From Sipunculus nudus (taxonomy: Eukaryota > Annelida > Sipuncula > Golfingiida > Sipunculidae): 64,000 bases of DNA. This document shows positions 1,333-52,300 of the stretch, in pieces. Where the stretch lies: positions 69,484,926 through 69,548,925 of the forward strand of contig CM049309.1 of the NCBI GenBank assembly GCA_026874595.1, in the 5' to 3' direction. Each line of letters opens with the position of its first letter. Within the stretch, counting starts at the first letter, position 1. Under the pieces are notes generated by a model. It made no database searches. It was not told the origin of the DNA and saw nothing but the letters and a program-made list of their open reading frames with translations. Made by a program: the position numbers and the translations under genes.

Positions 1333-4300
1333 GTAGGTTGGTTCATGGTGTGAGAGTACTCATAATAAAAGATGAATTTGTGCAGTTAATATTTCATATC
1401 AGCAAGGTCAGTTGTGATTCCAGTCTGCAGTGACCATTATATGGTTTATGTTGTGAAAGTGCTCACTGTAAAATATTAATTTATGCAGTTTAAACTTCCT
1501 ATTTCAGTAAGATAATACATAAAGACATTCAGTTTTACTGTCAATCAGACTGTGAACAGTGTTTGCAGTGAACATAATATAGTCTACAGCATAAAATTTC
1601 TCCCCATTAAATGTGAATCTGTGCATTTAAACAACTCATTTAAATCTTTTAAATTTTTTAAAATATTAGCAAAAATAAAAAATTTGTACCTTAAATTTTG
1701 CCCAACTTTGACCTTGACACATTTTTTCCTGTAACTGCTGTGGATTTAATTTTAACAGCATGTTTTTGTAAGCATTTCATCTGTTAACACCAAAAATTTG
1801 AAACCACTTGATCAAAAACTGTAGATTTTATTTAAGTTTTCAAGCACCATGTCACATATCGTTTACATCAAGCTATTGTTATGCAGTTTGCTAGGGCTCA
1901 GCTCCCCAGCTTCAGCTCTCAGTTCCTGAAATTTGGTTTACAGTTTGATGTCTCCAAAATCCCCTACCATGCCAAAAATTTGGTCACTAGAACTTAATTC
2001 CTTCGAGATATTAATGAAAAACTTCATTTTTCCATTAAAAACTCATTGTTACACTTCAAGACTGCCTAATATCAAAACCACTGATCTGATTTTGATCATA
2101 TATAAACTACATATTTTTCTATATATTTGCTATGCACATGCCAGAAATGATGTCAGTATTGCGTAACTGTTTTAAGTTATGGGCCCAAACATGATGCACT
2201 TTGTAAAAAATCAAGAAATATATTTACTCCCTTAACAAGAGGATTGCTGAAGCTAGAGATTTTTTTGTCAGTGATGTAACATTATTTAATCAAGATTCAA
2301 TTGAATACCCAAAATTAGTTCTGTATTTTTCAAATTTTATAAGTTATTAGTATAAATATAAAATTAAACTTAAATTTTGCCGTAAATTGGACCATGGCAC
2401 ATTTGTTTCCTGTAAGAATTGTTGATATAATTTTCATATCATGCACACATAAGGATTTCAGCTTTTTAGTTTAGAAAGCTGAAAGATATTGGCCAAAAAT
2501 TATAGCTTTTAATGTTTTTTTGAGACCATGTCAGACCAAGGCTCTCCCCAGCCCCTCTTCAGTCACCTGTATGTTGACCTGGTTGACCTTTCAGCAAATT
2601 ATGCATGCTTGAGGCGAGGCATACACTGGGGCAGCCAGGCAGCTTATGGCCAGCCACAGTTGATCCAGGTGTCCAACCCAACTCATCTAGTAGTTGTTTT
2701 GACCAACAACATAACAATAAATTATAAATTAATAAATTATTATTGGTTTTTAATAACAAATTAAGAAAAAATTAATAGAAAAGGAATCTGTTAGTTGATG
2801 AGTAACAGGAAATTAACTTGCAGTTACTGATGATGTAAGAATCTTGTTTGGATGGATAGAATGTCACGTATTCCAAATAACACCATTCAGTCACCTATGG
2901 TATTTTTCAGTTCAATTTTAATGATAACAAAAATTAATCATAATATTCATTACTAATCATTAGGGATCATATGAAGGAAATAAATGATAGACAAAGATGC
3001 AGTTGATAATTTTAATCTAGATTCCTACTGTGTCTAGTGTGTAGATTGATGTGAAAGTAGCCCAAAGTGAATATATTACATTAATTGTTTTTAATATAAA
3101 TAAAAGCCATAACACCAGGTACTTATGATCATTATTTAAATTTGTGAATTTTGTATATTCTGGATTCTCAGCATCATTGTTTGGCTAAAACTGAATAAAT
3201 ACCAGACATGGTGTGAATACTTTGCAAATGTATTTGAATACGAATATGAATCATTATAAAATTTCTTGCATAAGAATGGGAACTCAGGTAAAATAAAATA
3301 TTTGAATACCAGTGCAAATACTTTCAAAATGTATTCATGAATGCATTCATGAATATATTCTATAATATTATTTTAATAATCATTTCAGTTGTATTTCATT
3401 TTAAAAAATCATATGATTCTCTTATAATTTTTAATAAAAATTATATTAGGCACAATATTTGTTATTAAATTTTAATGAATAGTTAAACTCTTATATCATA
3501 TGTGCTGCTTATAAGTTATATGACGAAGTCAAAATCTGTGCGACAATAGCACTCCATTTGTTAATAAAATAAATGAAATCAATCCTCTTACCTGTCTCCA
3601 AAGATACTATCAAAATCATACATAAGCTAAACACCAACAACTCATAATACAGCTTATATTTATTACCACACAAAACCAGCATGTGCCTCATTTCCAAATC
3701 ATATTTTTTTGATCATATATAACAGCTGAGTGCCGTGACCCATGCGTCCTTTGTTGTTGTTTTTGATGAATGAGCACCAATTCATTGGTATTAATATTGT
3801 TAATATTTTTTTGCTCTTGCAAACGTCCCTTAAAAAAATTTACATATGTATTGATAATGCAATTTTTTGTTCATCAGAGTATCATTAAAAATGGATTCTA
3901 CATCATATTTTATTTCTACAATTATATTAGTTGATAGCATTTTGTATCCAGCTAGCACTTTCAGTAAATTTTAAAAAAAAAATTCCCATATTTGTTTTGT
4001 CTCAGAGCCTGTAGAACATTTTATTTCAATTGTATAGCCTAATCTGTTACTCTGCTTCAGTGGCAAATGCTGTACTCACAAAACATATTTTCATCATCAG
4101 CTCCATGTTTTATTTTCAGTAACATTTGCTGCGTCTGCAATATTTGGGTACTGGTGGTTGATTCCAACCTTGTTATGGGTTTTGTTATGGTGGAGGGGGA
4201 GTCAGGCTGGATATAGTTTCCTGGAGATGGTGTGTGTGTATGGTTACAGTCTGGCAGTCTACATTCCTATATCAGTAAGTACCAAGTATATGTGTATGTC

Positions 4301-7300: not shown

Positions 7301-10300
7301 AGTTGAATGTACTTTTGATTAATATACTCATAAACAAGTACTCCTTTTCTGAATCATCATAGCTTATCATGATTGTGATATACATGTACCGCATTCAGTA
7401 AGTATGAATTATCTAATTTTTGTTTTTATATTTAGTATCTAGGAATGGTAGGGATTGGTTTTAGAATCATAATTGATGATTGAAAAATCAAATTATTAAT
7501 AATCAGTTATTTTATATAGTATCTATATTACTTTGAATATAGTATATAGTATACTACTACCTAAAATATTGACCCCAATAATACATGTACAGGGGTATTC
7601 ATGATAAACCATCAATCCATCCACATCTGAGGTTGACTTGCTGTCATATATCTTTGAGAGGATGACATTTTATGCATGTGCATACATAATCGTTTTTAAT
7701 CGATAATGAAAAATGCAATCGATTTCATCAGTTTTTAAAGAAAAGGACCAATCATTGATTAAATCTATCAATCTGCACACCACTAGTACCTAGAAAAGAT
7801 ATCAGTGTTTACATCAGTGTTAAGATATCAGTGTTGACATTGGTAGACCATCAGAATATATATGACAGAATTTTTTCAACTTCACTCATAATTAATTGTA
7901 TCCCCAGACAAAGTCAGGAGATACTATGTTTTCATACCGGTCCCGCCGCCGCCGCTGCATATAAATCTTGTTGCCTCAATAACTCAAAAAATATTTCACG
8001 GATCTTTACCAAACTTGGTATATGTATAGATATTGGTGAGAGGACGACGCCTAATTAAAATGAGGTCATGACCTTGAATAGGTCCAGTTTGGGGGAAAAT
8101 CACACAAATTCTTCAATATCTCAAGAAATCTTGGATGGATTGATCCCAAAATCAAGTTGATGGAAGATCATGGATAAATATTGTCATGTTCCAGAAACTG
8201 GTGGCGCCACCTATTATTCTTTACTTGTTTTTGTGCCGTTTAACACCCCCAAAAGTGCTTCTTGACAGCACTGTGAGCATTATAAGTCAAAAACTAATGG
8301 ACAGATTTCTTTCATATTATGCATATACATAGATATAGGTTATGGGATGATGTTTATTTAAATTGGGGTCATGACCTTTCCAGTGAGAGTGGCTTTGACC
8401 TTGAATATTGCCATATATGGTGAAAATCACACAAAATCATTAATTTCTCAATAAGGGATGCATGGATTGGTCCAAAAATCAACTTGATCAAAGATCTTGG
8501 ATAGTTGTGTCATGTACCATAAACAGGTGGCACCACCTGTTATTCTTTTACTTGTTTTCGTGCCGTTTAATACCCCCATCATTGCCACTTAACAGTACTG
8601 TGAGCATTATAAGTCAAAAACTATCAGACAGATTTCTTTCATATTATACATATACATAGACATGGGTTATGGGATGATGTATATATAAATTGGGGTCATG
8701 ACCTTTCCTATTAGAGTGGTCTTGACCTTGAATATTGCCATATATGGTGAAAATTGCACAAAATCATTAATATCTCAATAAGGGATGCATTGATTGGTCC
8801 AAAAATCAACTTGATCGAAGATCTTGGATAGTATTGTCATGTACCATAAACAGGTGGCACCACCTGTTATTCTTTTACTTGTTTTTGTGCCTTTAATACC
8901 CCCATCATTGCCACTTAACAGTACTGTGAGCATTATAAGTCAAAAACTATCACACAGATTTCTTTCATATTATACATATATATAGACATGGGTTATGGGA
9001 TGATGTATATATAAATTGGGGTCATGACCTTTCCTATTAGAGTGGTCTTGACCTTGAATATTGCCATATATGGTGAAAATTGCACAAAATCATTAATATC
9101 TCAATAAGGGATGCATTGATTGGTCCAAAAATCAACTTGATCGAAGATCTTGGATAGTATTGTCATGTACCGGAAACAGGTGGAGCCACCTGTTATTCTT
9201 TGACTTGTTTTCGTGCCGTTTAATACCCCATCATTGCCACTTAACGGTACTGTGAGCATTATAAGTCAAAAACTAATGGACAGGTTTCTTTCATATTATG
9301 CATATCCATAGACATGGGTTAGGGGATGATGTATATTGAAATTGGGGTCATGACCGTTTCTATGAGAGTGACCTTTTCTATGAGTGTGGTCTTATATTAA
9401 TTGTTGCTGAAGATGGGGGGGCCTATTCTTGAAGGGGGGGACTAATTGTCTGGGGATACGATGGCACCTGCGGTGCCAAGAAATATCTAGTTTTGATTGA
9501 TTTCTCGACCAAACAGATGTGTGGGAGTGCAAGTCCAAGATAGCAAAGTCTGATCTGAGTCCTTGGTCTATGAGCACTGTCAACTCGGCAGTGACGTCAC
9601 ACACTGGGAAATCCCCTGTGACTAAAAATTCTAGATCTCAGTAAAAGCACAGTATTTCTGCCACTGTCAGTCCAGAATTTTCATGAGGGAATAAGAACAA
9701 CATGCATTACTAGGGCTGAGTTGTTGATAAAATTCAGTCCATGTTGTTACATGTGTACAAGTCAATCAAATCAGGGCAAAGTCTGGGATCTGGATGAAAT
9801 CCTCCATTCACACAACAAATGCATGTGGTATAGGTTTTCTTAACCTTCAGTGCTACATCACACAAGTGACACCTATCAAAAACAGATGGTACTAAATGTT
9901 CCTGTGCCTCTGAACATTTTGCCTTCAGTGGCAATGAATGGTTTTCCCTCAACAAGAAACCTCAATGATCAGTTAATTGTTAATTTTTTTTATTGATATC
10001 ATGTTTTTCTTGTTGCAAAAGGTCACTAGGCTTATTTTTTGTTTGTTTCTAAGGTAGCATGATGTATCTATGTCATCAACAAGGTCACATGACTTCCATG
10101 AGGACACAGGTGCATTGAAATGGAGTGACTGTCTCACGCCATTGGTGCTTGTCATGTTGAACATATATATATAGAAAATACCCTTGAAAGGATACACTAT
10201 ACCTTGGCTGAAATTTTACCCCAGGTCCCTTAAAGCATATATGATGATTTCTGTGGGCGGTGTTCGCCAGGGATCCTATATCTAATGTTTTTGTTGTGAT

Positions 10301-13300: not shown

Positions 13301-16300
13301 AGCAGTGTACAATAATAATTATGTGGCTGTTTTTTGCCCATTGTGGCATACTGCCAATTGTGGAGTGCTGAGCTAGAAGAAAATGGGTTAAAATTAATCT
13401 CCAACATGTGACAGTCTCAAATGTGGTATTTTTTGTATTTATATTGTACGTCTAGGTAAACTACATGAAGAAACTGTGTTGCACTTACAGTCAATATATA
13501 GAAAAATTGATAACACAACTTTCATGGTAAATGAGAGCTGAAAAGTCTATGCCCCCATTATCTTCAAGTTAGGGATGGGGGGGGGGAATTTCCCACATCA
13601 GGTTGTTCATATCACAATAGTTTTTGTATTCAACCAAGTGTATGTACCCCAGAAAAGGACAAGTGAATTTGTATGTGTCTCTCTGTCCATCTCTCAGCTC
13701 AGCTGACTATAAGTCATCTGAGCTGTAGTTGTGGTCCATTGTCCATCGTCTGTCTGTCCGTAGATGTGGCATGTTTTGAAACTGTAAGACTTAGGAATCC
13801 AAAATTCAGCATAATGTTAGATGTCCCCAAGATATCCTACCAAGCCGAAAACTGGGTCTTTGTGACTAAGTTCCTTTGAGAAATTAAGGAAAAACCTCAA
13901 TTTTTTATGAAAAACTATTTTCACACTTCAGGACTGCCTAATATCAAAACCCTCATATTTACCATAAATATTCCACATATAGCTCCTATGTACATGCCAG
14001 AAATTAGGTCTCTATTATATAATTTAAAAAAGTTATGGGCCCAAATATATTGCACTTTGTAAAAAAAACAGGAAAAATATTGGCTCACTTAACATAAAAA
14101 AATGTTAAAGCTAGGGATTTTTTTTCAGTAATATAACTTTAATTAAACAAAATTTAAGATCAAATATTAGATCAAAATCTTTTAAATTTTTTAAAATATC
14201 AGCAATAACATAAAATTTGTACCTAAAAATTTTACCTAAACATCATGGCACATATTTTTCTCGTAAGTATATTTAATTTATTTTTCACAGCGGGGATACA
14301 TGTGGATTTAAACTTTTTAAGAAATTATTTCCTTTTAAATAATGAAACAAAACATAATTCAACCCATCAGTAGGCATAATTTGGTAATATATGAAACAAA
14401 TCATGGATAAATAAAGATGCATGTGAATTCCCAAGTATTATTTTCATATATTTATTGCTTTGCAAATTTAAAAAATATATTTTATAAAAAAATGAAATAT
14501 GTCTGTGTGCATAATGTGATGTTACCTGACTAAATTTAGTAAAAATGTTGATGCAATTTAGATTTGTGAATCAGTTTTATTATACAGATATATATAATAT
14601 ACTGTAAATATAAAGTAAAATTTATAAACTTAAAAAAAATTACTCAACAAAAGAAAAAATAGGATCTAATGCAAATATTTGTTCATTATTTTCCTGTCTC
14701 AGTTGAATGGAAATTAAATTTATTTGCTTTTTTTCCATCTCTTTGCCTGTTTTTAAATATTTAAAGATAATTTCATTTTAATTAAATTTTATCCTTTACA
14801 TATATGCAGAGGTGCTGTAACTCCGACCAGTCCCTGTAAGCACCATTGAATTTATTTCTCGTATTCTGTATTTATATCCAAAGGTGTTGTAACTCTCCCT
14901 CCCCCCCAGTCATTGAGCCCTAGTTCCTGAGCACTTAGGATAGTATTTTTATTGCAGCTTCAAAAAATCTATGGTGATGCAGTTATAACTGTCACAATCG
15001 GCTGAGTGCCGTGACCCATGGGTCCCTTGTTCATGCACAAAAGGCCTGCCAAATCACTTTTTTAAAAAAATCACATTTTTTTTTTAGGATTTCCTGAAAA
15101 TTATGCTAATCACTCTTTTTTCACTCTTTTTTTTTGGCAGCACTCTTTTGCCTCTTTTTTTTTTTGTGTGAAAGAATTCCTGTATATTCTATTTCTTTAC
15201 TGCTTTCATGGTCCAGTAAGAACAAGAATGGGACCTTTCACAATTTTTATGTATGCATATGTCTTAGAATGTGTCACAACATGAGGAATATGCCCTTATC
15301 TGCATGCAGGGGAATGTTCGCCATGTATGTTTCTGATTTTGGGAACGATATGCCTCAATATATAAACACAATTGTGGTTTGTGAAGTACATGTTTTTTTT
15401 CAGTCTGTGATAAAAAAATGGGGGAATTGACACTTCTTTTACTCTTTTTTCACTTTTTTTTCAAAGAAGTTTATTCTTTTATTATCAGACCACTTACTCT
15501 TTTTTTCAGTCATTCACCTTTGACAGGCCTGCGTGACAGCTTATTAAGGAATCATGTCATGGCCATTTAAATTGTATTTTTGCCATTATGTCTATAAACT
15601 GTTATATGAGGGTGTGTGTCATGTGATTATCTATGATTTATATTGGTCTGCTGAAAAAATTACAGGTAAATTGCTCTGTCAGGTAAGATATTGAATATTT
15701 GCAGGGATAGTCAGGACATCATTTTTGCAAGTACGGTAAAGCTTGTTATAACAGGGTCCGTTACAATGGAAGACTCGAGTTTTGAACAAATCTCTAGGGA
15801 GTGATTGAGTGATAGTTAAAATTGGCTTCAATATAATGGAAAACTTGAGTTCTGGATCCTAGCGGACTTACATGAAACAAACTGAACATTGCTCCTATAC
15901 TCATAATCGTTATAAAGAACTGGACTGACGGCAGTCAGGTCCAAGTTTCCCTAATTGTTTGATCTTTTGTGAAACCCAGCCGCCAATGACAAGCTTATTA
16001 ACACTACACATATGAAAGGGCAGGTTTTCACACACAGGCCATAGTTGAATGGTTATGTCACTGCACTGTTTACTCCCAATCTTGGTTAACTACTTGAGTA
16101 TTTGATTGTTTGTATCATTTACATGCGTACACTACTCAGGGTACAGCAAATTCCTTATCAATGATCATCATAGGAAAACAGTTGTGACATGTTTTTCCAA
16201 ACATATATAGATAAAAGCCGAGGACTGCATAAATAATGGACAGAATATGCAACAAATACATTCCAGGCCTGCCAAAGTTAAATGCTCGAAAAAAGTCATT

Positions 16301-19234: not shown

Positions 19235-19306
<72 letters not shown>

Positions 19307-22300
19307 ATTTCTTCACATATTCAAATTGGCATCAATGTGCACTGAACACTACTGAGCAATTGTGTATCCAAAATATGATTTGAGCCTAATGGGACCACAA
19401 GAGGTAGCCCTTGTACCACATAGATCATGTTTTGTGTGTACATCTGGCTGTACAAAGGACATGACTAATTAGTTTAAGTGATCTTTAATGTCTACAGACC
19501 TGTGTCTTCTGTTGTTGGCATGGACTTAGTATTATATATAGCTTTACAAAGCACGCAAGTTTGTCATTTGAAAGTCATGCATAATGAACTACACACGCAT
19601 CTTCTATGTAAATCTCAAGATTACAAGGAAAGAAGACCCGGCTTTGGTCTTTGGTGGGCAGATTTTTATTTGGTTGTGTTTTATGCAGATGAATGAAAGG
19701 ATTCTAATTCACTTTACTCGCCGTTTAAATGTCAAGGCTTAGCTAAAAGAAGCGTCGTCTGAAGATGGTGCATGCTCACATTCTGGCTGCAGTCATTTGG
19801 ACAGAACTCATGTTTCAATTGCTACATACCGACCATCTGCTCCTGATGAGGCTTTTGTTCTGGAATGAAAAGCACGCTAAGATGTTTCATGGGCTGGAAA
19901 GTCATCTGAAAAGCAACAGCAGACATACCCATCCCTCCAGTGTCACACCGGTGTAACAGAATATTGTCCTACTATAAAAATATCAATGAATTTTCATCCT
20001 CTCTTCTTACTCTGGGAGCTAATTTACTTTTTTACTTTGCTAACTTGTTTAGTTAGAAACCTTCAGAGTTGTGCAGGTCTTCTTTAATTACAAATGGGGT
20101 TTATCATTTCAGGCAAGTTATTTTCAATTTAGTTTTTTGTGCACAACCTTGTTAGCTTGTTGTACAGTTGAATGAACACCAACCTCTTTGGTAAATGAAA
20201 CAGATGTACAGATACAAGTTTAACAAAATAAAACGCTGTTTAACGGAAATAATTTTGTCCTTTGCATGACCCAGAAGCATCAGTTTACCCAATACAATTT
20301 AATTAATTTGAAGAATTGCTTTTGAATTTTATGTTGGTTGGCATGGATCAAATTTTAAAAAAAATCAAAGAACTCCCATGATAAAAACTCTTTGTAGGAA
20401 TTATTTTTATTTTTTTCAGTGTAATCCCACCAGCTCAACTGAACAGTTGCTATAAATATAATAAATGATTTTTAGTCTGTCTAGTCATCCAGATTTTAGT
20501 CAGTAAAGTTTTGTAAATATTACAGAGGAACACCTGGGATTCAAGCCTTGTTTGTCCATTTTAAATTGGTCTGTATGTAATTTTTCCAGGTTTTCAAAAA
20601 TCCAGTCTAGAGTCTACTGTAAAATTGCCATTATCATAAACATCTAATACACAGATTGTAAAAATTTGACAAAGCAAGTTTAAATGTCAACTATCAGACA
20701 AACCTCAGTTTTTGGTAAGGCCACAAAATATTTTATCAGAAATTGTCCACTCAAATAAATGCCTTTTTTAGCGAACCTGTGAGCTTATGCGATGGTGCGG
20801 CGGCGTCCGTAGCGTGTCGTGCGTCCTACGTCGTGCGTCATGCGTCGTCTGTAAGTTAACCATAGCCATCTCAAAAACGGCAGGAGCTAGCATCACGAAA
20901 TTTTTTGCAAATAATCAGTCATCCAAAAAACTATATCGGATTTGTTTATTTTTTTTCAAATTACATTTTCGTAGATTTTATTGGGAAAAAGCTAAAAAAG
21001 TTTTAAAATTTTCTTTTCCGAAATTGTCTAGCCAAATTGTCCAAATATTTCACAGAAATGATCCCTGGAACAATTTTCTCAAGTTTTAGTTCGAATGGTT
21101 CCAGTTCGGAGATTTTTTGGCCAAGTTACAGGAGGTTGAACTTTGTTAACTGTGCAAAAAAGCATATTAAAATTTAAATCTCAGAAACGGCTGGAGCTAT
21201 CATCACCAAATTTTATAACAATATTGGTCACATGAGTCATATAAAAAAATTGAGGTATTGGTGGCGCCACCTGCATCGGCCTTTTTTGTACAGGGTCATT
21301 AATGCCTGTATCATACTGACGGCTACAAAAAACTTCTTCTCTGAAACCATATGGCCAAAATGTTTAATATCGCACAGAAATGATCCTAGGGTAGTGCTTT
21401 CTGAAGTTTGTTCAAATGGTCTCAGTTCAGTGACTTTTGGCTGAGTTATGGGAAGCTGAATTTAGTCATATGCTGTAACAGCCCATTTTAGCTCAGTGGC
21501 TACAAAGATCTTCTCCTCAAAAACCACTGGGTCAAATTCTTAAATCTCACACATTAATTATCCTTAGATGTTGATTATTCAAGTTTGTTCAAATGGTTTT
21601 GGTTCAGTGATTTTTGGCTGAGTTATGGGAAGCTTAACTTAGCCATTTTGCTGTATTTTCCAACGTTTTTTGACTGATGCCACTGAGGCCAATTTGTTTA
21701 ATATTTTACAAGAATAATCCCCTGAATAATTCTTATGATAATTGTCTTTTATGGTTCCAAAGAATGAATTTTGGCTGAATTATAAAGATTGAATTGAGTC
21801 ATTTTACCATATATGTTAGCTGTAGGAAGCAGACACATCTAGCCTGGCACTAGTGTATCAGCATTTATTACATCATGCCTCTAGACATTTAAATTTCAGG
21901 TTATCAATGGTTAATATTGACAAGAATGTTTATCAAAAGCTTTAAAAATTGTAGATTTGATTTGTGAATGGTCCAGCCAAATTGTTCAATATTTTACATA
22001 AATGATCCCAGAGGCAAGCCCTCTAAAGTTTGTTCAAATGGTTTGCATTTGATGAATTTTAGTGAAATTTCACAAATTTGAACAGTCATTTGGCCAAGTA
22101 AGCATACTGACAAAGTACTCTCAGAAATGACAGAAGCTAGCATTACCAGGTATTGTGCAAATGTTGATCACATGACTCATATTTGAAGTTTCAGATTTTT
22201 TGGTGCCACCTACATTGACCTGTTTTTTATAGTTAAAAAAACTCATAATTTTAGCCTCTTTCAGCTTAATGATGAAACTGTCAAGTTGAATTGTTCAATT

Positions 22301-37300: not shown

Positions 37301-40300
37301 CACACAGATAACCATAACAACATATAAAACAGGTGAACTGGAGATAGTAAGCCCATTTGCTGGATGGTTTGGCTTTAAAAATCCAAATAAACATCCCTGA
37401 AAATATATGATAGACTTTGAAAGCAAACTCTAAATTTGTAGTAATCATGAGAAAGTTGACTTTAGTATTTGTTCTTCTTTATGAAGGTAGTTGATACATT
37501 TCTTTCAGTACACTCATTAGCACACCATGGTGTTGAGACTTTTTCTGAAGGTTCATTAATCATGGAGACATACCCTCTGAGACAACATCAGACAATTCAC
37601 TAATTAACTTTGTAGGATTCTGTTCCAAAGAAATCGAGTGAAAGCATTAATTTAAGGTTTCAGATAACTACATTGTTCTTGTCTTGCTGAATGATTGCAC
37701 ATTAGCCGGGAAGGTCAAGGTCAAATGCAAACTTAATTTTGCATTCAGGTGCTTTGTTTATATGCAAATACATTTTGGTACCATGAAAAAAAAATGAATA
37801 TTTAGGACTTTTCATTATATAGCCAAAATCCAGCAAATCAGATGCTGAGTTCTAAAAAAAGATAAAGAAATAATAAATTGAAAGTATCAGTAATTTTAAA
37901 AAATCAATTTTCAAGATTTTCTAACTGAAATAAAAAATTTGATAAGCCCAAACTTTTGAACATGTCCAAACAATGAAATAGTAATTATAGTGAAAAGCTG
38001 GAAACCACAACATATTAACTTGTCATTACCAAACATTAAATGTGAATAAATAATTAAATAATTTAACTTAATTAATAATTAGTTTGATATCAGTGCAATT
38101 AATAAAGCATTAAATTACTGAACCCACAAATTCATACTGGATTATAGCCATCATTTTGCACTGAGGAGGAGTAGGAGACATTGGTTATGACATGAGCACT
38201 GTTGTCACCTGGTTGTCACCTGGTTGTCTCATAGTTGTCCAAGAGAGACCTGTACAGGAAGGTAACAGGGGTGATATTTCTGTGAAATAGGAGAGATAAG
38301 AGGTGCCTGCATCCTAGATATTGTCTGTAAAATGAGGTATGGCAGATTTTCAAGGGACCAAAATCAGGTGAATGGCAAGTTTATACATCATGTAGGAGAG
38401 GAGATTAGGGGTGTTGAGGGATGGGGTTCTCAACAGCCACTTTTTTGACATACTGTTGTACAAAGCTTATGTAAACCATTGTGCCATTTCATGTTCATTT
38501 GATATTTAATTTCCTGCATTGTATATTTATCATCTCATCTTAACTTTTATATTTTTGCCATGTCCATGTGGTCTTAAATTTTCAATTTTTTTCCCATGAT
38601 TGTCTGGTCCAGCAGCTCATAACTGTTCTCTTATTAGTTCACTCTGTGAACTTATGTCATGGCGCAGCGTCCGCCGTCCACTGTCAACTGTCCACTGTCT
38701 GTTACCAAATATCTCAACAGCCACTGCAGCTGCCTTCATGAAACTTTGCAGAATTACTGGTCATGGGATGAATATGCAAAAATAAGCTTTTGGTGGCGCC
38801 ACCTGTGTCGACCTAGATTCTGCGGACCAAAATGGTCTTTTTCACTTCTTCCAAGATAAGTCGAAAAGTATAAATATCATGGCCTTCATATCATAGGCAA
38901 AAGTTCCTTAGAGGAAGGGAAATAATTTGGGTGTAAATTGAGTCAAGTCATTTTCAAAATGGCGTCTCTACAGAACTTTAAATTGTGTTGATCGCAAAAT
39001 TTGGCAACTTGATATGTTTCCATACATGATGTATTGTCTGTTACCAAATATCTTAGGAACTGCTGCAGCCTTCAGTTTCAAATTTCACAGTAATATTGAT
39101 CATGTAACTGCTAAATGATAATGAACTCAAGGTGGTGCCACCTGTGTTGACCTACTTTCTGCTGGTTGTAATGGTCTTTTCATCTTTTTCCAAGATAAGT
39201 CATAAAGTATAAATATTTTGGATTTCATATCATAGTCAACAGTTCCTAAGAGGAAGGGGAATAATTTGAGTATAAATTCAGTCAAGTCATTTTCAAGATG
39301 GCTTCTCTACGGAACTTCAAATATGTTTCAATCGCAAATTTTGGCAACTTGATGTGTTTCCATACATGATGTATTGTCTGGTACCAAATATCTTAGGAAC
39401 TGCTGCAGCCTTCAGTTTCAAATTTCATAGGAATATTGATCATGTGACTTTCAAATAATTTTGACCTGCAGGTGGCGCCACCTGTATTGAGTTTCATTTG
39501 CTGTTGTTGAAAATTGCTCATATCTCAGGAGCATTGGTCTAAAATTGGCATGTGCATCAATCTTTGAAAGTTTCCTGTTAAAACTAGACAGGTTGGGCAA
39601 CCTACCTTGTGCAGTAGAATACTGTCCACTTGGAAAGGAATAAATGTTTTTTTCACATTCAATTTTTTTCTTTTTTAATCACCCCCCATCATGCACAGTA
39701 ATTCACAGAGTGAACATTAGACCCCTGGGTCTCTTGTTTCAATATTCCTTTCCGTCTGAACTTGACTGCAATATTTTTTCTTGTCCATCTGGCCTTGACT
39801 TCTCAGATTTCACTTGTCCATCATGATCTTTTCTTAAATTTGTGTTATTCATGTCCAGTTGGCCTGTTTGATCTTACATTAATTTAGTGTTTTTGCTCTG
39901 GTTGGTATAATTTAAACTTTCCTTTTCTCCTCATGTCCATCTGGTTGCAATATTTTAGTGTTTCCAAGTAAGTCTTAGACGGGATGTATTCTGGTACATC
40001 CACAGACCATCTGTCCATTAACCAGTGTAGCCATGATAACTTACCAGGGCTTTGATGGATTTTTCCGAAACTCATCAGAACTACTCACCAGAACTATTTA
40101 TCAATGGCTGATCTCCCCCAGTTTTGATGAGCAGCCAGGCAAAATGCATGTATATTTAATGATGTCAGAGTTCACCAGACTTTGCTAGTTTCATCATGAT
40201 GTACCAAAAGTATGACGGCTTTTCATTAAACTCTTGTAAATATTTACCAATAAAGTTTATGGCCTGAATTAACTACTCGCAAAATCCACATATTTAATGA

Positions 40301-43300
40301 GGTCAGAGATCATAAGACATACAACAGGTGGATTATGAACTCTTGCTATGCTCCTATTACTTATGTTCAGTGCATGTGTCAAGTTATTATTTTCTTAACT
40401 GGTGCAAGGACTCAGTTTTCATTGATACAGATTGCATGTTGAATTCCTGTGACAGTAGTCACTTAAAAACTAACCTCTGGAGATAGGATTTGGATGCTTC
40501 ATGCACTAAGAACACTTGGGATAACATAAAAATGACTGTATAATTACCTGGATCATTCTTTACAGACAAAACTCACTTATGTTTCCATGGAGTCATCTGG
40601 TCACATGGATGATTGATATATGTAATTAACGTGCATTGATAATTCATAATGTAGATTAATTTATTTACTAATTATATTACTTGGTGAGTTTGTGGAAATT
40701 GATTTCTTTTGTCATAAATTATTCAGGAGAAAAGAACTTCTGTTGTTCAGAAGACCATTCCTTCATTAAAGACCAAAACAAAAAAGATCATTAAGAAGAA
40801 ATAAATAGATTTACTCCCATATCAGTGAAGAAATTAAAAGTACAACGGTTTCCTAATTGATGTACAATTTCTGTTACCTACCTGACCATTAACTTTTTAT
40901 TAAGAAAGAGGAAATGTAACAGGATTTAATATGCTTTCAGAGTTTCTTGCTTAACATTAAAAAGTCACAATAATGCAATTACTACCTTATTTTCAATTCG
41001 GTAATCATATTTCCAAGTGCATAAATTTTTTCTTTAAATTCTACAGAATCAAACTTTGTGTGCAAATAACATTTGGAAGTGAAAAAATAAATTGATTGAT
41101 GCTCTACATTTGATTGATAATGGTAAACACAGAGGGATTGTAACCTGATGATTAAATTAGCATTATTTATACATAAATATTTCCATAAGTGCTGTTGTTG
41201 CTATGATGACTTGTCCTCTATAACCTTAGGAACATTAACAGTTGTAATATGGCCTGGGTGCAGTTGTGACTGTTTATTATGTTGCTGTAAGTTTTGAAAT
41301 TTATTCACTAGAGGACAGCCACATGTTTTCATTAAGGCCTGCAAATCTACAGCCAGTATGAGACAGTGGGACAATGCGTGCAGTGCCAAGCTGAACCTGT
41401 GTGCTTTCCATTAAATAACTTGAACCGAGTTTAACTATGTGTCCAGCCATGATGCATTGTATTTACAATATGAAAGAGATGTGTCCTGTAGCTATCATGT
41501 CATATCCATACATACAAATATAAGGGAATGCACAATCTTCTTCAACTTTCACATGACATACTTTTATACTTTCTCTTTAGTATTTGTACACATGAACGCA
41601 GAGGTTTTGAAGATAAAGAGGTTTTATCATTATTACTTCATATTTCCAGGAAAGAAATTAGATAACTGCAGTTTGGTTAAAACCTATCCATTTTTGATAA
41701 AGGTTTATGTAGGACCCATTTGTCAAGTCAGGCAGGCAAGCAGCAGGTGACTTATGATTGCCTTCCCACCATTTTCTGTAACTTTTACTTGGCCCTAGCA
41801 AGCAATTAACCGTCAGTGTCTAGCTCTGTTGCTTCTGATTTTACAACTGCTTAAAGGGAATTAAAATACAGATACCTGTACCTACATTGATTCTTACTGT
41901 ATTTTAAAGTGAACCTGTGAGCCTATTCCATATGGCACCCATACATTAACCCATACTATCTCAAAGAAGGCTGAAGCTAGTATCACCAAATTTTGTGCAA
42001 AAATCAGTCACATGTCAAACATTGTTGAATTGTGGGGACATCTGCATTGTCTTACATTTTACATGGAATAGCTATGAAATCTTCAAAAAATTTTCTCAAA
42101 AGATGTCAAGCCAAATTGTTTAAAATTTCACCCACAAAAAACTAGGAATGAGCTCACTCAGGCTTGTTCGAATGTTTCCAGTTTGATGATTTTTCTCTGA
42201 GTTACAGATGGCTAAACTTAGTAATTTTTCCAAATAAGCATTCTAAAATTACAATCTCAGAAACAGCAGGAGCTAGCATCACAAAATATAATTATGCGAA
42301 AGTTGGTGACACCTGCGTCAAACATTTTTTTGTATGGGGTCATCTGTAATATATGAGAAGCTGAAATAAGTCATTATGCCAAGTAAACATACTATGATTA
42401 TTATATGTTACAGATTCTTTGGCTGATACAGCTGAGCTGGTTACAGTGGCTGCTTGTGATGCTAGGGATGGCGTTGTCTGGAAGTGTGCTCCTCATGGTC
42501 TTCTGGCCAGCAGTGAAAGATGATGACAAAAAGGTAGGAGGGCTGTAGAAACCAAACAAAGTACTCATAGACATTGATATTGTGTAGAAACCAAACAAAG
42601 TACTCTCAGACATTGATATGGATATGGATAGAGCATAGAATACATGATGACATGCAGAGGCAGCAGGCTCCTGCATTGGTTCAATATTTGTGATTGCTTG
42701 TGGTTTTTTATGCCCCCACCACAAAGTGGCCGGGGCATATAGTTTTACCCATGTCCGTCCTTCCGTCATTCCGAAATCAAACAGTTGTACGGATTTTTTT
42801 TCGCAATGCCTGCAGATATTGGCCTGATTTTTTGTGTGTGGGCAGATAATGACCAGTTACTGATCGAGTTTGCGTTTTGTCCCGGTTGACCTACTTTAGA
42901 CCGTTTTACGGCTCCTAAACTTAGAAAATTTCATGAAAAATAGAAATTTTCATGACAAATACACATGTACGGACTTTTTTTCGCAATGCCTGCAGATATT
43001 GGTCTGATTTTTGGTATGTATGCAGATTATGACCAGTTACAGATAGAGTTCGCGTTTTGTCCCAGTTGACCTTCTTTTGATTGTTTTACGGCTCATTAAC
43101 TTAGAAAATTTTATGAAAAATAGAAATTTTTATGACAAATACACATGTACGGACTTTTTTTCGCAATGCCTGCAGATATTGGCCTGATTTTTGGTGTGTA
43201 TGCAGATATTGACTAGTTACAGATTGAGTTCGCGTTTTGTCCCAGTTGACCTACTTTTGACCGTTTTACGGCTCCTAAACATAGAAAATTTCATGAAAAA

Positions 43301-46300
43301 TATAAATTTTCATGACAAATACACATGTACGGACTTTTTTTTTGCAATGCCTGCAGATACCGCCCTAATTTTTTATGTTTGGGCATATAATGACCAGTTA
43401 CAGATCAAGTTAGCGTTTTGTCCCGGTTGACCTACTTTTGATTTTTTTACGGCACCTAAACATAGAAAATTTCATGAAAAATATAAAATTTCATGACAAA
43501 TGTACATGTACAGCTGTTTTTAGCCCTCAGCTCATAGGATGATGGGCTATTGTCGTCACCCAAGCTGTCCGTCTATCTGTCCGTCCATCTGTCTCTCAGG
43601 AACCATTGTGTGGATTTTCACAAAACTTACTTTGCTCATTGGGACTGATGGTCTGTAGTTGCTGCACAATTTTGGTGGCGTCACCTGTAATTTCTGATTT
43701 TTTAATGAAATTTTATCGAATTTTTAAATTTTGGCCTTTTGTGCGGGATATCTCCAAAGGTATTCAACTAAGGAACTTCATTACTTCAGTGCTTTTGCAT
43801 CATATTTACAAAATCTTGGTCAAGTTCAAAGATGGGTGGTCTTGACTTACTTTTCTAGGTCACAGAGCTTAGTATAGAAAAAAACTTAGGGGGATATTTC
43901 TCAGGAAGAATTTGGTGGATTGTTATAAAACATGGTACATACCTCTCCAATTTGAATTTATAACTGATTATCAACTTTTGCTAATATTCTAGTTTCGCAG
44001 TGCAATGCTTACAGATACTGGCCCAATGTTTGGTGTGTGGGCGCATAATGACCACTTACAGATCGAGTTCGCGTTTCGTCCCAGTTAACCTATTTTTGAC
44101 CAAATGACAGATCCTGAACATAGAAAATTTCATGAAAGACAGAAATTTTTATGAAAAATGCACATGTATGAACTTTTTTTCACAATGCCTGCATACTGGA
44201 CTGATTTTTGGTGTGTTGCTTGATAATGACCTGTTACAGATCCAGTTTGCATTTTGCCCTTCTTGACCTACTTTTGACCATACAACAACTCCTGAACTTA
44301 AAAAATTTTACAAAATTTAACAAATGTTTCTAATTTGCCCCAGGCGGGGGCATTCGTGTCATTCCAACACATCTAGTTTTTCCAAATTCCAGTAAAATTA
44401 TAATAGCCAAGCCTTTGTTCAATGAACATGGAATGATACTTTTTTACTCAGTTTTTGAAGATAATGACCAATTTCACATGTTCTCAGAGGCTGATGAGAA
44501 CATTTCAAAACAATTCAAAATTCAATTAGTATATCTGATAGGCCATTGTGTAACACATTATTACATCATTTTTAGATGAGCTTTGTGGGCCAAGGGTCAG
44601 TAAGAACCTGCTTGCACAAAATAATGACAGATGTTTCACCAAGAGATTTATATGAGTTAATGCTAAAAATATCAATTCAAATAAGACAGGAAATTAGTAT
44701 CAAAATATGTTATGACATCATAATAACAATAGTCCAATACAGTTGATTCTAGTAATTCCATTCAACCAATGCTATAGTCATGTCTGGATCCAACCAGTCT
44801 TATAGACATGCAAGTAAAGGGGTAATTTATAGTTTTCATCAGGTTTAAATCTTTTTAAAGAATATACACTTTAACATGAGTATATAGTATGATGACAGGT
44901 ATACCGGTAATCATATTTGGAAGAATAAATGAATAACAGCAGTGAGGCCTCTAAAAGAAAGTGGAGAATTTTCAGCAAAACTGTTTTAATTAATCTAAAT
45001 AGAAGACACTATACAGTCACACAACAAGTATAATGAGGAAGAGCCAGTTGTACAGATCATTCCATCAAACAACAAAAATAAAAAAGAGACAAACAAAAAA
45101 AGAAAAAAAAAGAAGGAAAACATCTCTGAAAAGCTTGGATCATTTGCTTCTGGTAGCTATATCTGGACCACTTTTCAACAAGATTCACATCGGGTAGATT
45201 TGATGGCACTGAAACCAGGCTGATTAAGCATCTTACCATTCATGTTCCTCACATCTAGTAATTTAGCGGGCTGCAGAAACGGACAGCAGCAAGCCTACAT
45301 GTTAGTTAGGCAGTGCTGCTGCTGGTATAGCCCTTAAATTGTCTACAGCTTCCAGACAGCAGGGACCTGTAAGTTGTACCGTTGTCGTAGAAATAACTGG
45401 ACTTTGATCGCTCCTCGAGCGATTCTGAGTGATCTAACGCAGCCTGCCTGTGGTTATGTCCCTTTTATCAGTCCCTTTGTGAAGGTTCTTTCATTGACAT
45501 CATCATTGAGCCCAAATTGTCCACATCCATTAAAGTTTTCAATTACAGACTTCTGACAAAAGTTCTCAACTCAGATCACCAGGGCTAGCTATGTGCCAAG
45601 AGTTTGTGGTGATTTTTTTTTTTGCACTTTCTTCTTATTGCTTCAGTCAGGAGGGTACTTGTTCATTTCCATTTGTGTGTGTGTTTGTATGTGTGTTCAT
45701 AACAGAACTCTTTCAATCATGAAAGCAATCACATGAAAATTCCCAGGCATCTCAGGAATGGGCCATGGAAATAGATTATATTTTGGCGTAGGTCTGGCTC
45801 ATGATCCAGGTACAGGAAGGACTTCCAGGAATTTTTACAAATGTGCAGTCACATATGCCCGATTGAACATGGGAATCTTGGCAAATAAGTGAATGCAAAC
45901 ACTTGTTTGTTAATATATACCAATTAAAATGGGAATATTGGCCAGTGAATGATTGGAAACACAAGTTGTGGAGTACTTCTCATTAAGGACTGCTCACATG
46001 TTGGAGGCCTGCATTCTTATCATGCATATTTCAAATTTTTATGATACTTTTTGCCATATAGTGATTCTACTATTATTGTTATAATCATAATAATAATAAT
46101 TAACAAACATATCAGAAATGAATAAAGAATAAAATAAATGTTTATTTCATTATTTTAAAGTTATATACCATCTTACTGTTAACATTAAATATATAAGTAA
46201 TTTCCTTCCTGACAGCAATTTATTTTTCATTTTTTAAGTAAGAAGTATAGAAGAGCTATTCATGATATAAGCAATGAATTTTCAGTGAAAATGTAAAAAA

Positions 46301-49300
46301 AAATTATACAGCTTGTAAATATTATTTGATTTAAGGTACCAAGGGAATTGATATCAGACTTACACACAGCAACTCCATTCGAGCCTTTGTCCCAAAGGGA
46401 GCAACTACTCAAACTCTAATTTTTTACAGAAATGTTTTATATGTGACAAGAAATCAAGACAAGTTATTTATTTAATTACATGTTAAAATCTGTTTCTTTT
46501 ATGTTGAACTGGACCATTCCACTTATCAGTATTTTTCATATGATCATGCAGTTTGCTTTACATACTCAGAATTTAATTTTTTTTCTCCAGTTTCTCTTTG
46601 TAAATTCTTCTTTTGAACATACCATGAAATGTTTTCTGAGTTTAGTGTGTTGTTTATCTGGTCACTCTTCATTACTTTCCATGTCACTCTTAAATCTTAA
46701 AAATATATTTAATCTCGCAAATATTCACTTATCCCACAGTATAGTGGTTGTGAATACATGGCTCAGTAGGAAATCATATTGGACTGATAGGGCAATCTTT
46801 AGTTGTGACAAAAGTCATTATTAAGGTCAAGCAAACATATTCCAAATCTCATTATATTATCATATAACATAATTGCATATGAAAAAAATATTAATATAGA
46901 TTTTACATAAAATGAGCCCAATTCCTGGAGGAAAAACATTTTTTTATCTATTTTTCCACTAAAAACATGAGGTTGTGTGATTTGTTCAAAAACTATGGGC
47001 ACATCTATGAGCACTGTCAAATCGGCAGTGACGTCACACACTGGGAAATCCCCTGCGACTAAAAATTCTAGATCTCAGTAAAAGCACAGTATTTCTGCCT
47101 CTGTCAGTCCCAAATTTTCAGCAGAGAATAAAAACAACATGCATAACTAGATCTGAGTTGTTGATAAAATTCAGTCCATGATGTCACACGTGTACCAGCC
47201 AATCAAATCAGGGCAAAGTCTGGGATCTGGGTGAAATTACTTAACCTTATGAGAAAACTGAACTGCAACAACCATCCATCCTACTTCATTAATTGTTAAC
47301 AGCCAGTAATTTATTATTAAAGGTGCCCATTCACCTACCTTTTGAAAAAAAATTTGTGATTTTTGGTTTCCTCTGTATATATATTAATGTTCTAAGGGTA
47401 GTTTTATTTTTTTAAAGTTTTTATAAGGCCTTAGTTAAGGATGTATGAACTTGTTTATCAACAACCCTTTTGTTGACAGAGAAATGTTGACAAACGGGAA
47501 AAACATGTAACATAAGGTGGTAGGTTGCATATATTCATAGGTAGAATTAGAAAGGTCACTTGTTGTAAAAGGCCATTTGCAAAGCTCTGGCTTATTTGAC
47601 TTGCTAAAAAAGCCCTTGTTGAATTTGTTTGATTATTTTGGCAGGCCCCCACATATTATAAACATGTTGATATAAACAAACATGCAGCCTGTGTGCAGTG
47701 ATGTGTGCATTTTCTGGACAATTTTAATAAAAGCTCCAAGGGATTACCTTTAGTTTATGAAGGTCAGATGGGTGATTAGGCCCCTTCAAGCCGAGAGTCC
47801 AGAAATAAGATAAAGAATACAGTTGAAGTGTAAATGCCCATCTATATGGTATATGTTGCCATTTCCTGTTCTGGTAGGATTTAGCTGTTTGGAAGCCACA
47901 GGAAACATAGCATGTTTGTCTGCAGTCAGAAATTCAACAAACATTTACTAGGATAGGCATTTTTAGCTCAGCTGACTGAAAGTCATCTGAGCTATAGCGA
48001 TCACTCTTTATACGTTGTCCGTCTGTCTGTCCGTCTGTCTGCCTGTCTGTCCGTCTGTCTGTCCGTTAACCAGGCACAAATGGTAACCGCTAGAAATGGA
48101 ATCTTCTTACTTGACATCCTGGGAGGTCCATGAAAAATCTCCTTGGAAACCAGAAATTAGGTCTCTGTTACCCATATCCTTTGAGCTATGGGGCCCCAAA
48201 GTACCCCCCAGAAAAGTCCAAAATTTCAAACAAAAACTTCAATATCTCATTAACAACTTGACTGATGGTCATGATTTTTGGCATACATATTGATCATGAG
48301 AGGTTCCATCAGTTCCTGAAGACTGGTGGCGCCACCTGTATTTTTCGATTTTTTACGAATTTTTTTCTCTATTTTTGAGACCTTTAAAAATGTGAACATC
48401 TGTTAACAAGGCACAAATCGTAATGACTGGACTTAGAATCTTCATTCTCAACACACTGAGAGACCTATGAAAAGTCTCCATGGAAACCAGAAATTAGGTC
48501 TATGTTACCCATATCCTTCCAGCTATGGGGCCCCAAACTACCCCCCAGAAAAGTAAAAAATTTCAAACAAAAACTTCAATATCTCATTAAATACTTGACT
48601 GATGGTCATGATTTTTGTCATATATATTGATCATGAGATGTTCCATCACTTCCTGCAGACTGGTGGCGCCACCTGTATCGTTCAACTTTTTACGACTTTT
48701 TTTCTCTATTTTTGAGACCTTTCAAAATGTAAACATCTGTTAACAAGGCACAAATCATAAAGACTGGACCTAGAATCTTCATTCTTGACACACTGAGAGA
48801 CCTATGAAAAGTCTCCATGGAAACCAGAAATTAGGTCTCTGTTACCCATATTCTTCGAGCTATGGAGCCCCAAAGTACCCCCAAGAAAAGTAAAAAATTT
48901 CATACAAAAACTTCAATATCTCATTAACTACTTGACTGATGGTCATGATTTGTAGCATAACTATTGATCATGAGATGTGTCATCACTTCCTGCAGACTGG
49001 TGGTGCCACCTTTATTGTTTGATTTTTTACAATTTTTTCCTCTATTTATGAGACCTTTAAGGATGCTGTCATCTGTTAGCATGGAACAAATCGTAACGAC
49101 TGGACCTAGAATCTTCATTCTTGACACACTGAGAGGTCCATGAAAAATATCCTTGGATCCAGAAATTAGGTCTCTGTTAACCATATCCTTCGAGCTATGG
49201 GGCCCCAAAGTACCCCCCCCCCTGAGTAGTCAAAAATTTCATACAAAAACTTCAATATCTCATTAACTACATCACTGATGGTCATGATTTTTGGCATACA

Positions 49301-52300
49301 TATTGATTATGAAATGTTCCATCAGTTCCTGCAGACTTGTGGCGCCACCTGTATTGTTTGATTTTTTACGATTTTTTCCTCTATTTTTGAGACCTTTAAG
49401 GATGCTGTCATCTGTTAACGTGGCACAAATCATAAGGACTGGACCTAGAATCTTCATTCTCGACACACTGAGAGACCTATGAAAAGTCTCCATGGAAACC
49501 AAAATTAGGTCTCTGTTACCCATATTCTTCGAGCTATGGAGCCCTAAAGTACCCCCAAGAAAAGTAAAAAATTTCATACAAAAACTTCAATATCTCCTTA
49601 ACTACTTGAATGATGATCATGATTTGTGGCATAACTATTGATCATGAGATGTGTCATCTGTTCCTGCAGACTGGTGGCGCCACCTGTATCGTTCGATTTT
49701 TTACGATTTTTTCCTCAATTTTTGAGACCTTTAAGGATGCTGTCATCTGTTAGCATGGCACAAATAGTAACGACTGGACCTAGAATCTTCATTCTCAACA
49801 CACTAGAAGACCTATGAAAAGTCTCCATGGAAACCAGAAATTAGGTCTCTGTTACCCATATCCTTCGAGCAATGGGGCCCGAAAGTACCCCCCCAGAGTA
49901 GTCAAAAATTTCATACAAAAACTTCAATATCTCAATAACTACATCACTGATGGTCATGATTTTTGGCATACATATTGATTATGAGATGTTCCATCAGTTC
50001 CTGCAGACTGGTGGAGCCAGCTATGTTATCTATCAAGAGGGTACAAATTGCAACAACTGGACCTAGAAACTTCATTCTTGTCATGCAAGGAGGCCCATGA
50101 AGAGTGCCTGTGGAAACTTGAAATTAGGTCTCTGTTACCCATATCCTTCAAGCTATAGGACTCTGAAGTATCCCTCAGAATAATGGACAATTTGATACAA
50201 AAGCTGAAGTATCTGAACAACTAATACGGAGATCATCATGATTCTTTGCATGGATATTGACCATTAAGTGTTTTTAGCTCAGCTGACTGTAAGTCATCTG
50301 AAGTATCCCTCAGAATAATGGACAATTTGATACAAAATCTCAAGTATCTAAACAACTATTGCAGTGATCACCATGATTCTTTGCATGGATATTGATCATG
50401 GAATGTGTCATCAGTTTCTGCAGTATGGTGGCGCCACCTGTATTTTTTTTATTTTTATGAATTTTTTTCTCTATTTTTGAGACCTCATAAGATGCAGTCA
50501 TCTGTTAACATGGCACAAATTGTAACAACTGGACCTAGAATCTTCTCTCTTGACATCCTGAGAGGCCCATGAAAAGTTTCCTTAAAAACTTGAAATAAGG
50601 TCTCTGTTACCCATAACCTCTGAGCTATGGGGCTCCGAAGTACCCCCCAGAATAATGGAAAATTTGATACAAAAACTCAAGTATCTGAACAATTATTATA
50701 TTGATCACCATGATTCTTTGCATGGATATTGATCATGAAATGTTTCATCAGTTTCTGCATTCTGGTGGCGCCACCTGTATTTTTTCAATTTTTAGCTCAG
50801 CTGACTGAAAGTCATCTGAGCTGTAGGGATCACCTTTTGTCCGTCGTCCGTCCGGCCATCCAGGCGTCTGTCTGTTAACAGGGCACAAATCGTAACCGCT
50901 AGACCGGGAATCTTCTTACTTGAAATCCTTGGAGGTCTAAGGAAATTCTCCTTGTAAACCTGAAATTAGGTCACTGTGACCTATATTCTTTGAGCTATGG
51001 GGTTCTGAAGTACCCCCCAGAATAATGCAAAATTTAATACAAAAGCTCAAGTATCTGAACAACTTATGCATTAATCACCATGATTCTTTGCATGGATATT
51101 GATCATGGAATGTTTCATCAATTTCTGGAGATTGGTGGCGCCACCTATATTTTTTTTATTTTTTACGATTTTTTTTTCTCTACTTTTGTGATCTTTAAAC
51201 ATTTGGTCATCTGTAAACAGGGCACAAATCATAATGACTGGACCTAGAATCTTCTGTCCTCACCTCCAGGGAAGCCCATAAAAAGGTCTACATGGAAACC
51301 CTAAATAAGGTCCCTGTTACCCATATTCTGTGAGCTATGGGGCCCTGAAGTACCCCCCAGAATAAAGATTTGGTCATATATAAACAGGGCACAAATCATA
51401 ATGACTGGACCTAGAATCTTCTGTCCTCACCTCGAGGGAAGCCCATAAAAGGTCCACATGTAAACCCGAAATAAGGTCCCTGTTACCCATATCCTTCATG
51501 CTCTGGGGCTCCGAAGTACTCCCCAGAATATAGATTTGGTCATCTGTTAACAGAGCACAAATTATAATGACTTGACCTAGAATCTCCTTTCTTGATATGC
51601 TGGGAGGCCCCTGAAAAGTCTCCTTGTGCACCTGAAATTACATCTCTGTTACCCATATCCTTCATCCTATGCGGCTTTGAAATACCCCCCAGAATAAACA
51701 TTTGGATTTGTTAACAGGGCACAAATCATAATAACTGGACCTAGAATTTTATTTTTTGACATGCTGGGAGACCCCTGAAAAGTCATCTTGTAAACCTTGA
51801 AAATAGGTGTCTGTTACCCATATCCTTCATGCTACAGAGCTCCATAGTACCCCAATGAATATTGGATGATTTTATACAAAAGGTCAAGTTTGGAAAAAGT
51901 ATTTCATTCAAATTTGACATTCAGATGATAAAATTACTTTTGTCAATGTCTTCCTGGTCAGCTGAGCGTCATGACCCCTGGGTCACTTGTTAGAAAGTAC
52001 ACAGACATATCAAATGGACAGTCTGGTTTATTTCAAGGGAAAGCATGCCTGTAAGGCATGAGGAAAAACTTGCAAAACTATATGCATTCTCATTGAGATT
52101 TCCCATAAGGTTCTCAACATTAGAGGGCATTCCACTCTGACAGATGTCGGATTGACAAAATGTCGCTTACAGCAGTAGAGCTCGCAAAAATGTTAAAAGG
52201 GATAACATTTACCAATGAATTACAAAATATATAAAGAGCTGTATACCAAGGCTCATGGGTTAGTAGCACTAATCCAAAACGAGAAACAAAAATCTTTTAT

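Follow-up and report, generated by a model that had tools for sequence, protein, structure and literature searches.

A recurrent hairpin-CTWG right end in Sipunculus nudus DNA and its very probable origin in Helentron-group transposons

The repeats considered here lie in a 64,000-nucleotide stretch of the genome of Sipunculus nudus (assembly GCA_026874595.1, contig CM049309.1, positions 69,484,926 to 69,548,925, forward strand; hereafter the window), and their closest described relatives are the Helentrons and their short, non-autonomous derivatives without genes, the Helentron-associated interspersed elements (HINEs). The distinction between Helitron1, Helitron2 and Helentron follows PMC5148889 and PMC4067079. 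With Helentrons and HINEs/DINE-1 as described by Thomas et al. 2014 (PMC4067079), the S. nudus elements share a Rep-helicase with the motif RGSPHxH, subterminal inverted repeats (subTIRs) of at least 11 bp, a 3' stem-loop and a T-rich target without duplication; the right subTIR lies 21-33 bases from the terminus here and 38-60 in the mite elements of that article.

The likeness extends to the Cg_HINE elements of the Pacific oyster (Vojvoda Zeljko et al. 2020, PMC7492417), in which a left subTIR with a complementary inverted repeat, a GTCY-like microsatellite, repeat arrays, a right subTIR, a 3' palindrome and a T-rich, unduplicated target are described, along with several families with unrelated cores. 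Three differences can be listed: the repeat units measure about 166 to about 337 bp here, as against an average of 140-180 in Cg_HINE; a palindrome is common to several families here; and the oyster HINEs have no relatable autonomous partner, whereas in S. nudus the ends named below B/H-type and C-type stand behind Rep-helicase loci. The oyster Pearl elements CvA, CvE and CvG also carry, by description only, ~160-bp repeats in short arrays with conserved sequence on either side (PMC7492417, PMC11136912). The Helraiser/Helibat Helitrons share a 3' hairpin before CTAG but lack inverted repeats and insert between A and T; deletion of the Helraiser hairpin lowered transposition and increased non-canonical, read-through events (PMC4778049).

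The signature that recurs in the window, a small hairpin followed by CTWGTT (W, A or T), is very probably the 3' end of rolling-circle transposons of the Helentron group, represented in the window by HINEs of families A, B, C, D, E and H, probable members F, G and I and a nested element, E12, with the B/H and C ends going with separate Rep-helicase clades. A rolling-circle origin had been proposed in a sequence-only reading of the window, and it is supported by the occurrence of the same 3' ends behind Rep-helicase loci and by empty sites without target duplication. Elements of this kind have been described before; the literature searched, supplements aside, gave no mention of these families, of their partners or of the shared palindrome.

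Anatomy and boundaries of the elements in the window

The elements follow a HINE layout, which typically consists of a T-run, a left subTIR, often a microsatellite and a repeat array, a right subTIR, a hairpin, and CTWG before the T's of the host. They are given here one per line.

7896..9492, + strand: HINE family A, ~327-bp repeat units, left boundary approximate; left subTIR GTATCCCCAGACAA at 7898-7911, right subTIR TTGTCTGGGGATAC, hairpin TGGCACC-TGC-GGTGCCA, terminus CTAGTT at 9487-9492
13696..15031, + strand: HINE family H; left end beginning AGCTCAGCTGACT, right end GGCTGAGTGCCGTGACCCATGGGTCCCTTGTT, subTIR pair decayed and absent from the output of the subTIR scan
20764..23697, + strand: HINE family D; T-run and left subTIR GCGAACCTGTG (20771), left end common to locus L011; right subTIR CACAGGTTCGC, hairpin AGGCCT..AGGCCT overlapping the terminus CTTGTT at 23692-23697
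24755..26317, + strand: F, probably a diverged element within the B/H group; AGCTCAGCTGACTG at the left end, inferred to pair with CAGCTGAGCATCGAGACCAATGGGTCCCTAGTT at the right
26554..26758, + strand: G, an element of ~200 bp; left end TTTTTAGCTCAGCTGACTG, inferred to pair with the decayed right end CTGAGCATCATGACCCATGTGTCACTTGTT
38634..39738, + strand: HINE family E; subTIRs GTTCACTCTGTGAA (38637) and TTCACAGAGTGAAC, hairpin AGACCC-CT-GGGTCT, terminus CTTGTT at 39733-39738
42704..44378, + strand: HINE family C; T-run and ATGCCCCCACC, followed by an array of 180-bp repeats; right subTIR GGCGGGGGCAT, hairpin GTGTCATTCCAACAC (decayed), terminus CTAGTT at 44373-44378
43522..43992, + strand: E12, nested in the 180-bp array of C; begins AGCCCTCAGC and ends in CTAG before host TTT
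47960..51991, + strand: HINE family B, with a GTCY microsatellite and repeats of ~337 and ~166 bp; left end TTTTTAGCTCAGCTGACTGAAAGTCATCTGAGCT, of which additional copies lie at 50277 and 50795; right subTIR GTCAGCTGAGC, hairpin TGACCC-CT-GGGTCA, terminus CTTGTT at 51986-51991
3723..3755, + strand: I, decayed right end of the B/H group, CAGCTGAGTGCCGTGACCCATGCGTCCTTTGTT; empty site for a nested insertion in locus L053
5490..5539, + strand: decayed family-A-like right end, TGTCTTGGGATA to TGCCAGAAATTTCTAGTT, recognized by eye, no BLAST match

The signature is real at the sites for which it had been claimed, although details of it had to be corrected. CTAGTT or CTTGTT is present at all eight main ends (the termini of A, D, E, C and B given above, together with 15026-15031, 26312-26317 and 26753-26758), CTAGTT is found at 5534-5539, where a decayed end at 5541 had been noted, and a decayed terminus, CTTTGTT at about 3749-3755, lies near the claimed 3757. 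A hairpin precedes six of the eight main ends (9492, 15031, 39738, 51991, 23697 and 26317); the stem at 26758 is decayed, and that at 44378 had been misassigned, TGCCCC/GGGGCA being the subterminal repeat of family C and its hairpin GTGTCG-TTC-CGACAC. This hairpin is decayed in the window copy at 44378 and intact in 85 of 100 listed genomic copies (by eye; the search pattern left both positions free). For E12 the terminus stands as claimed, CTAGTT at 43989-43994, but a hairpin or subterminal repeat was not found there. A 3' palindrome or stem-loop of the HINE kind is therefore present in the window, in decayed form in G, I and C, and was not found in E12.

Left ends and subTIRs had been missing from the earlier description. 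Exact subTIRs of 14 bp in A, 11 in B, 11 in D and 14 in E pair the left with the right ends, so that subTIRs of about 11 bp or more, as expected of HINEs, are present; an 11-bp pair with one mismatch was seen by eye in C, and none was found for H, F, G, I and E12. The scan, which required T's before the left copy, returned a pair of at least 10 bp for 9 of 61 CTWGTT on the + strand and 1 of 28 on the - strand; four of these matches are families A, B, D and E, and the other six are 10-11-bp matches, three of them within the A array. The left ends of C (four copies) and of D (two copies) are alike from the T-run onward and different before it, and B-type left ends have the same look in the window and in H_C17, a candidate autonomous element discussed below, with agreement from the T-run on. 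Family A has a second copy, in locus L003, with a similar left end.

One alternative is that the signature arises mostly by chance, hairpins and CTWGTT being common in AT-rich DNA. As first worded (a stem of 4 or more bp and a gap not exceeding 18 bases), it is indeed unspecific, with 32 matches on the + strand, 14 on the - strand and a null mean of 15.3. When at least three G/C are required in the stem, 11 matches remain on + and one on -, against a null of 1.57 (60 sequences, standard deviation 1.27, maximum 5); the 11 are six of the named ends, four repeat units within the family A array and one unexplained match (12590). Furthermore, the 1.43-Gb host genome was searched for the B, C and E ends, the control for the B core being the same pattern backwards. 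The 26-position core of the B right end has 7,567 exact copies (backwards control 0), 6,619 of which continue as ACTTGTT; the C right end has 1,791 copies (control 0) and the E right end 217 exact copies (control 0). These counts, which refute chance for B, C and E only, and the subTIR pairs of A, B, D and E make a chance origin very unlikely, while E12, at 43994, may be an irregular end.

The empty-site comparison that had been suggested as a check was made for some copies with paralogous sites, which place the boundaries at CTWG|T.. and in which no target duplication was found. The empty site of E12 is supplied on both sides by the 180-bp array of C, with T's at the junction. On the right side, the flank resumes an uninterrupted copy from the T-run both in L075, which lies inside a B repeat unit, and in L053, inside an H/I-type end; in L081, inside a D unit, the match picks up again 5 bases beyond CTTG and the boundary is fixed to within 5 bases. 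Insertion at TT or a T-run, with no target duplication found, is observed on both sides for E12 and on the right side for L075 and L053, and to within 5 bases for L081. A second copy of C with E12 inside occurs at L009:6644-8168, in the 10 kb immediately upstream of the window's first base, and resembles the window C only from the left T-run of C to CTAG, its E12 being 91% identical to the window E12 in the best stretch; because the similarity stops at the ends of C itself, C and its passenger were copied as a unit. Among 12 copies of B sampled from 100 listed on one contig, all keep TTGTT (11 ACTTGTT, one AATTGTT), and their flanks differ beyond the terminus, except for L071 and L079, which agree at 25 of 33 bases.

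Miniature inverted-repeat elements mobilized by DDE transposases would likewise have inverted repeats near both ends, and this origin was weighed. The right repeats, however, stop 21-33 bases short of the terminus, the E12 junctions show T's and five unexplained bases only, and the relatives encode a Rep-helicase, no DDE domain being reported in the pieces scanned; DDE elements, with terminal inverted repeats and target duplications, are therefore an extremely improbable source. A canonical Helitron1 (5'-TC, CTRR-3', A|T target, no inverted repeats) was also considered and set aside, as the elements have subTIRs and a T-run target.

Rep-helicase loci and their right ends

The genome contains at least 143 Helitron_like_N matches. 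Seventeen Rep-helicase loci were examined (three regions of 16 kb, two of which were lengthened by 5 kb, and 14 downstream stretches of 2.5 kb), and a window-type right end was found behind 10 of them. Eight are of B/H type (H_C17, H_C7, L052, L053, L054, L056, L058 and L059, with L054 and L056 as variants) and two of C type (L055 and L063); L059 and H_C7 share flanks and probably represent one duplicated event, counted as one. The comparison of the window ends with Rep-helicase loci of the same genome, which had been recommended, therefore shows that matching 3' ends follow some of these loci.

The protein motifs are those of Helentrons. Helitron_like_N and PIF1 matches occur in frame pieces of H_C17, H_C7 and H_C11, and H_C17 has a single open frame of 2,342 aa with both domains and a near-threshold Exo_endo_phos, predicting a Rep (HUH) and a PIF1-like helicase in one protein. 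Rep motif 2 has the S typical of Helentrons (RGSPHxH) in all three, in H_C17 as RGSPHIH, and among the 30 loci listed (L012-L041, in which L015 is the H_C11 locus; the data are for loci other than the C-type partners) RGSPH is present in 26, RGLPH in L013 and RGWPH in L038, while L012 and L040 gave no motif. For a C-terminal endonuclease, H_C17 scores 24.2 bits against a cut-off of 24.5 and H_C11 53.2 bits; a PDB search with the C-terminus of H_C17 returned helicases and no endonuclease. Residues 63-210 of the H_C17 protein (L044) match Herpes_teg_N (1.3e-11). H_C11 (L042-L043, L064-L065) belongs to the most intact Rep-helicase group, with a 2,235-aa frame that has OTU and endonuclease matches and a sister copy 99.2% identical over 11.8 kb; no window-type end was found in the 16 kb fetched for it.

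Over 1,174 bp, the B copy of the window shows 92.9% identity to the 5' part of H_C17 (positions 522-1691). Between positions 1 and 16000, H_C17 has a single B-type right end, at 15177, and its left end, near 288, carries the exact complement of the right subTIR. H_C17, whose left end was read in this one copy, would accordingly be a candidate ~14.9-kb Helentron carrying the repeats of B. Given this B-like 5' part and the sole B-type right end, B looks like an internal deletion derivative of such an element with the same repeats.

Under the partner rule for HINEs (same subTIR, same family; at least 80% identity over the last 60 bp, same subfamily), H is 85% identical to H_C7 over the last 60 bp, B 75% to H_C17 with an identical 11-bp subTIR, and C 78% to L055, whereas E reaches 70% at best with no shared subTIR and A and D remain at background; random 60-mers of the window give a mean of 51% and a maximum of 82%. 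The link of B and C to their partners appears to be carried by the exact end motifs.

The sequence-only reading had held it probable that several of the window families use one replicase. One replicase for all of them is suggested by the CTWG terminus common to the families and by the GACCC..GGGTC-like hairpin common to B, H, F, G, I and E, but the phylogeny speaks against it. The tree was computed from the region upstream of the Rep domain with 26 of 38 sources (the other 12 had no match or too little coverage) and rooted at the midpoint only. The B/H-type partners form one clade (100/100), a second holds the C-type partners (100/99), and H_C11 belongs to a third, large group; in addition, A, C and D have different hairpins and subTIRs. 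A single replicase for every family is therefore quite unlikely. The proposal fits only the GACCC/GGGTC group of B and H, by sequence probably also F, G and I; the C-type ends follow a separate clade, and for A, D and E no partner was found. The terminus common to these families is more readily taken for a superfamily trait than for evidence that proves a single enzyme.

Several points weigh against the Helentron assignment or its extension to all families. The initial probe, two termini 20 bases apart, was rarer in the genome than its control (388 vs 1,137). Seven of the 17 Rep-helicase loci have no window-type end in the fetched stretch, including the largest clade, that of H_C11, and no partner was found for A, D and E, the closest of 100 listed E ends lying 27 kb from a Helitron_like_N match. 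The seven tree rows with known ends represent few independent events: DNA identity is about 96-98% among the three B-type rows, and likewise between the two C-type ones. The last-60-bp identity is weak for B and C because random 60-mers reach 82%. The stretches read for the C-type partners stop short of the left end, the endonuclease was not seen in two H_C7 pieces and is just below threshold in H_C17, and the filled E12 site has 5 extra bases directly past the junction.

To the same side belongs a left-end-like sequence, TTTTTCAGCTCACCTGA, at position 5250 of H_C17, which offers an alternative left end. H_C17 could then be a composite, a 3'-truncated B HINE beside an autonomous Helentron that starts at 5250, where TTTTTCAGCTCACCTGATTAAGC occurs also in both sisters (C5:42912065 and C10:71600289). 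However, no B-type right end lies between 288 and 15177, the sisters are 98.8% alike for 348-418 bp upstream of 5250, and the left end near 288 complements the right subTIR exactly, so that a composite is unlikely and H_C17 is preferred as one candidate element of ~14.9 kb.

Anatomy, the boundaries of some copies, Rep-helicase loci with matching ends and Helentron-type protein motifs were all observed directly, and a mechanism consistent with them would run as follows. The Rep-helicase of a full-length Helentron elsewhere in the genome would nick at the left end of the HINE, and a single strand would be peeled off by strand displacement. Displacement would stop at the hairpin and CTWG, the hairpin acting as a terminator by analogy with Helraiser, and the strand would join a T-run, leaving the target unduplicated. 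One Rep-helicase clade goes with the ends that have the GACCC/GGGTC hairpin and another with family C.

A shared palindrome and the orientation of neighbouring ends

A palindrome, GGTGGCGCCACCT, is found at 30 sites of the window with at most 3 mismatches, as compared with 0, 1, 0, 1 and 3 in five first-order Markov sequences. The following lines give one of its sites and the element J.

8200..8212, strand not assigned: shared palindrome GGTGGCGCCACCT, one of the 30 window sites
29890..30620, + strand: J, repeat units with the shared palindrome at 29901, 30315 and 30593; ends undefined

Other sites include 21260, 24723, 38792, 39471, 43674, 48325, 50427 and 51134, with a cluster at 48325-51146. 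The palindrome is present in A, B, D, E, J and E12 and in the candidate autonomous H_C17 (L044/L048), and its exact 16-mer CAGGTGGCGCCACCTG has 4,777 genome copies (control 0). The claim that the families have unrelated cores must be restricted accordingly: A, B, D, E, J and E12 share the palindrome and a weaker similarity of its flanks; C and H are without it. The flanks of seven sites are 31-37% alike, these sites having been picked by the palindrome itself. A full-text literature search for GGTGGCGCCACC gave only one match, which was unrelated. Possibly, the palindrome is a cis-acting site for replication or expression. An origin of the arrays by self-insertion next to the palindrome was considered, as left ends follow it at 24723 and 50764, and was not adopted: one ancestral event could explain both.

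Every element recognized in the window is on the + strand; genome-wide, the strands of B are balanced (3,807 vs 3,760). The orientation of neighbouring ends of B and C was counted in part of one contig, C1, for B-C pairs in its first 16 Mb; the pairs are not independent. B-C pairs point in the same direction in 18 of 20 cases within 50 kb and in 61 of 74 up to 200 kb, whereas beyond 1 Mb only about half of them agree, and nearest B-C pairs within 100 kb agree in 15 of 19, a value reached by 1 of 99 rotations of the B labels. Within families, 28 of 35 B-B pairs agree within 50 kb and 56% at 50-200 kb, and 22 of 25 C-C pairs within 100 kb, with no excess at 100-500 kb (33 of 73); this excess therefore reaches only 50-100 kb, that between B and C further.

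One explanation is that Helentron insertions take their orientation from the neighbourhood, a single-stranded DNA intermediate perhaps joining the strand preferred by the direction of the replication fork or of transcription. This idea is tentative and rather unlikely, and it is opposed by the E-C pairs, only 4 of 8 of which agree within 200 kb; a control repeat agreed with the nearest C at 2 of 5 listed places, too few to judge. Strand-biased integration, selection on the gene strand and segmental copies are each possible causes of the co-orientation.

Other contents of the window and significance

The window has no Rfam match at gathering level and no tRNA, and five of the six open reading frame pieces tested have no Pfam match (28 frames of at least 90 aa were listed); a Yip1-domain-like exon at about 4138-4276 on the + strand is below the Pfam cut-off. 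A 234-bp repeat occurs at 9567-9800 and 47004-47237, the two copies being 92% alike, and a 32-mer of it has 142 genome copies (control 0). A large array of 35-bp repeats occupies 60929-62784.

As for the meaning of these results, the link between HINE arrays and autonomous Helentrons was left open by the oyster study cited above (PMC7492417). In S. nudus, the class of the right end tracks the Rep-helicase clade in the few groups that can be compared. Furthermore, the candidate ~14.9-kb element carries the repeats of its HINE, which suggests that "satellite-like" arrays can belong to the parent element and need not have been captured afterwards. The shared palindrome and the local co-orientation provide two leads on how these elements replicate and integrate.

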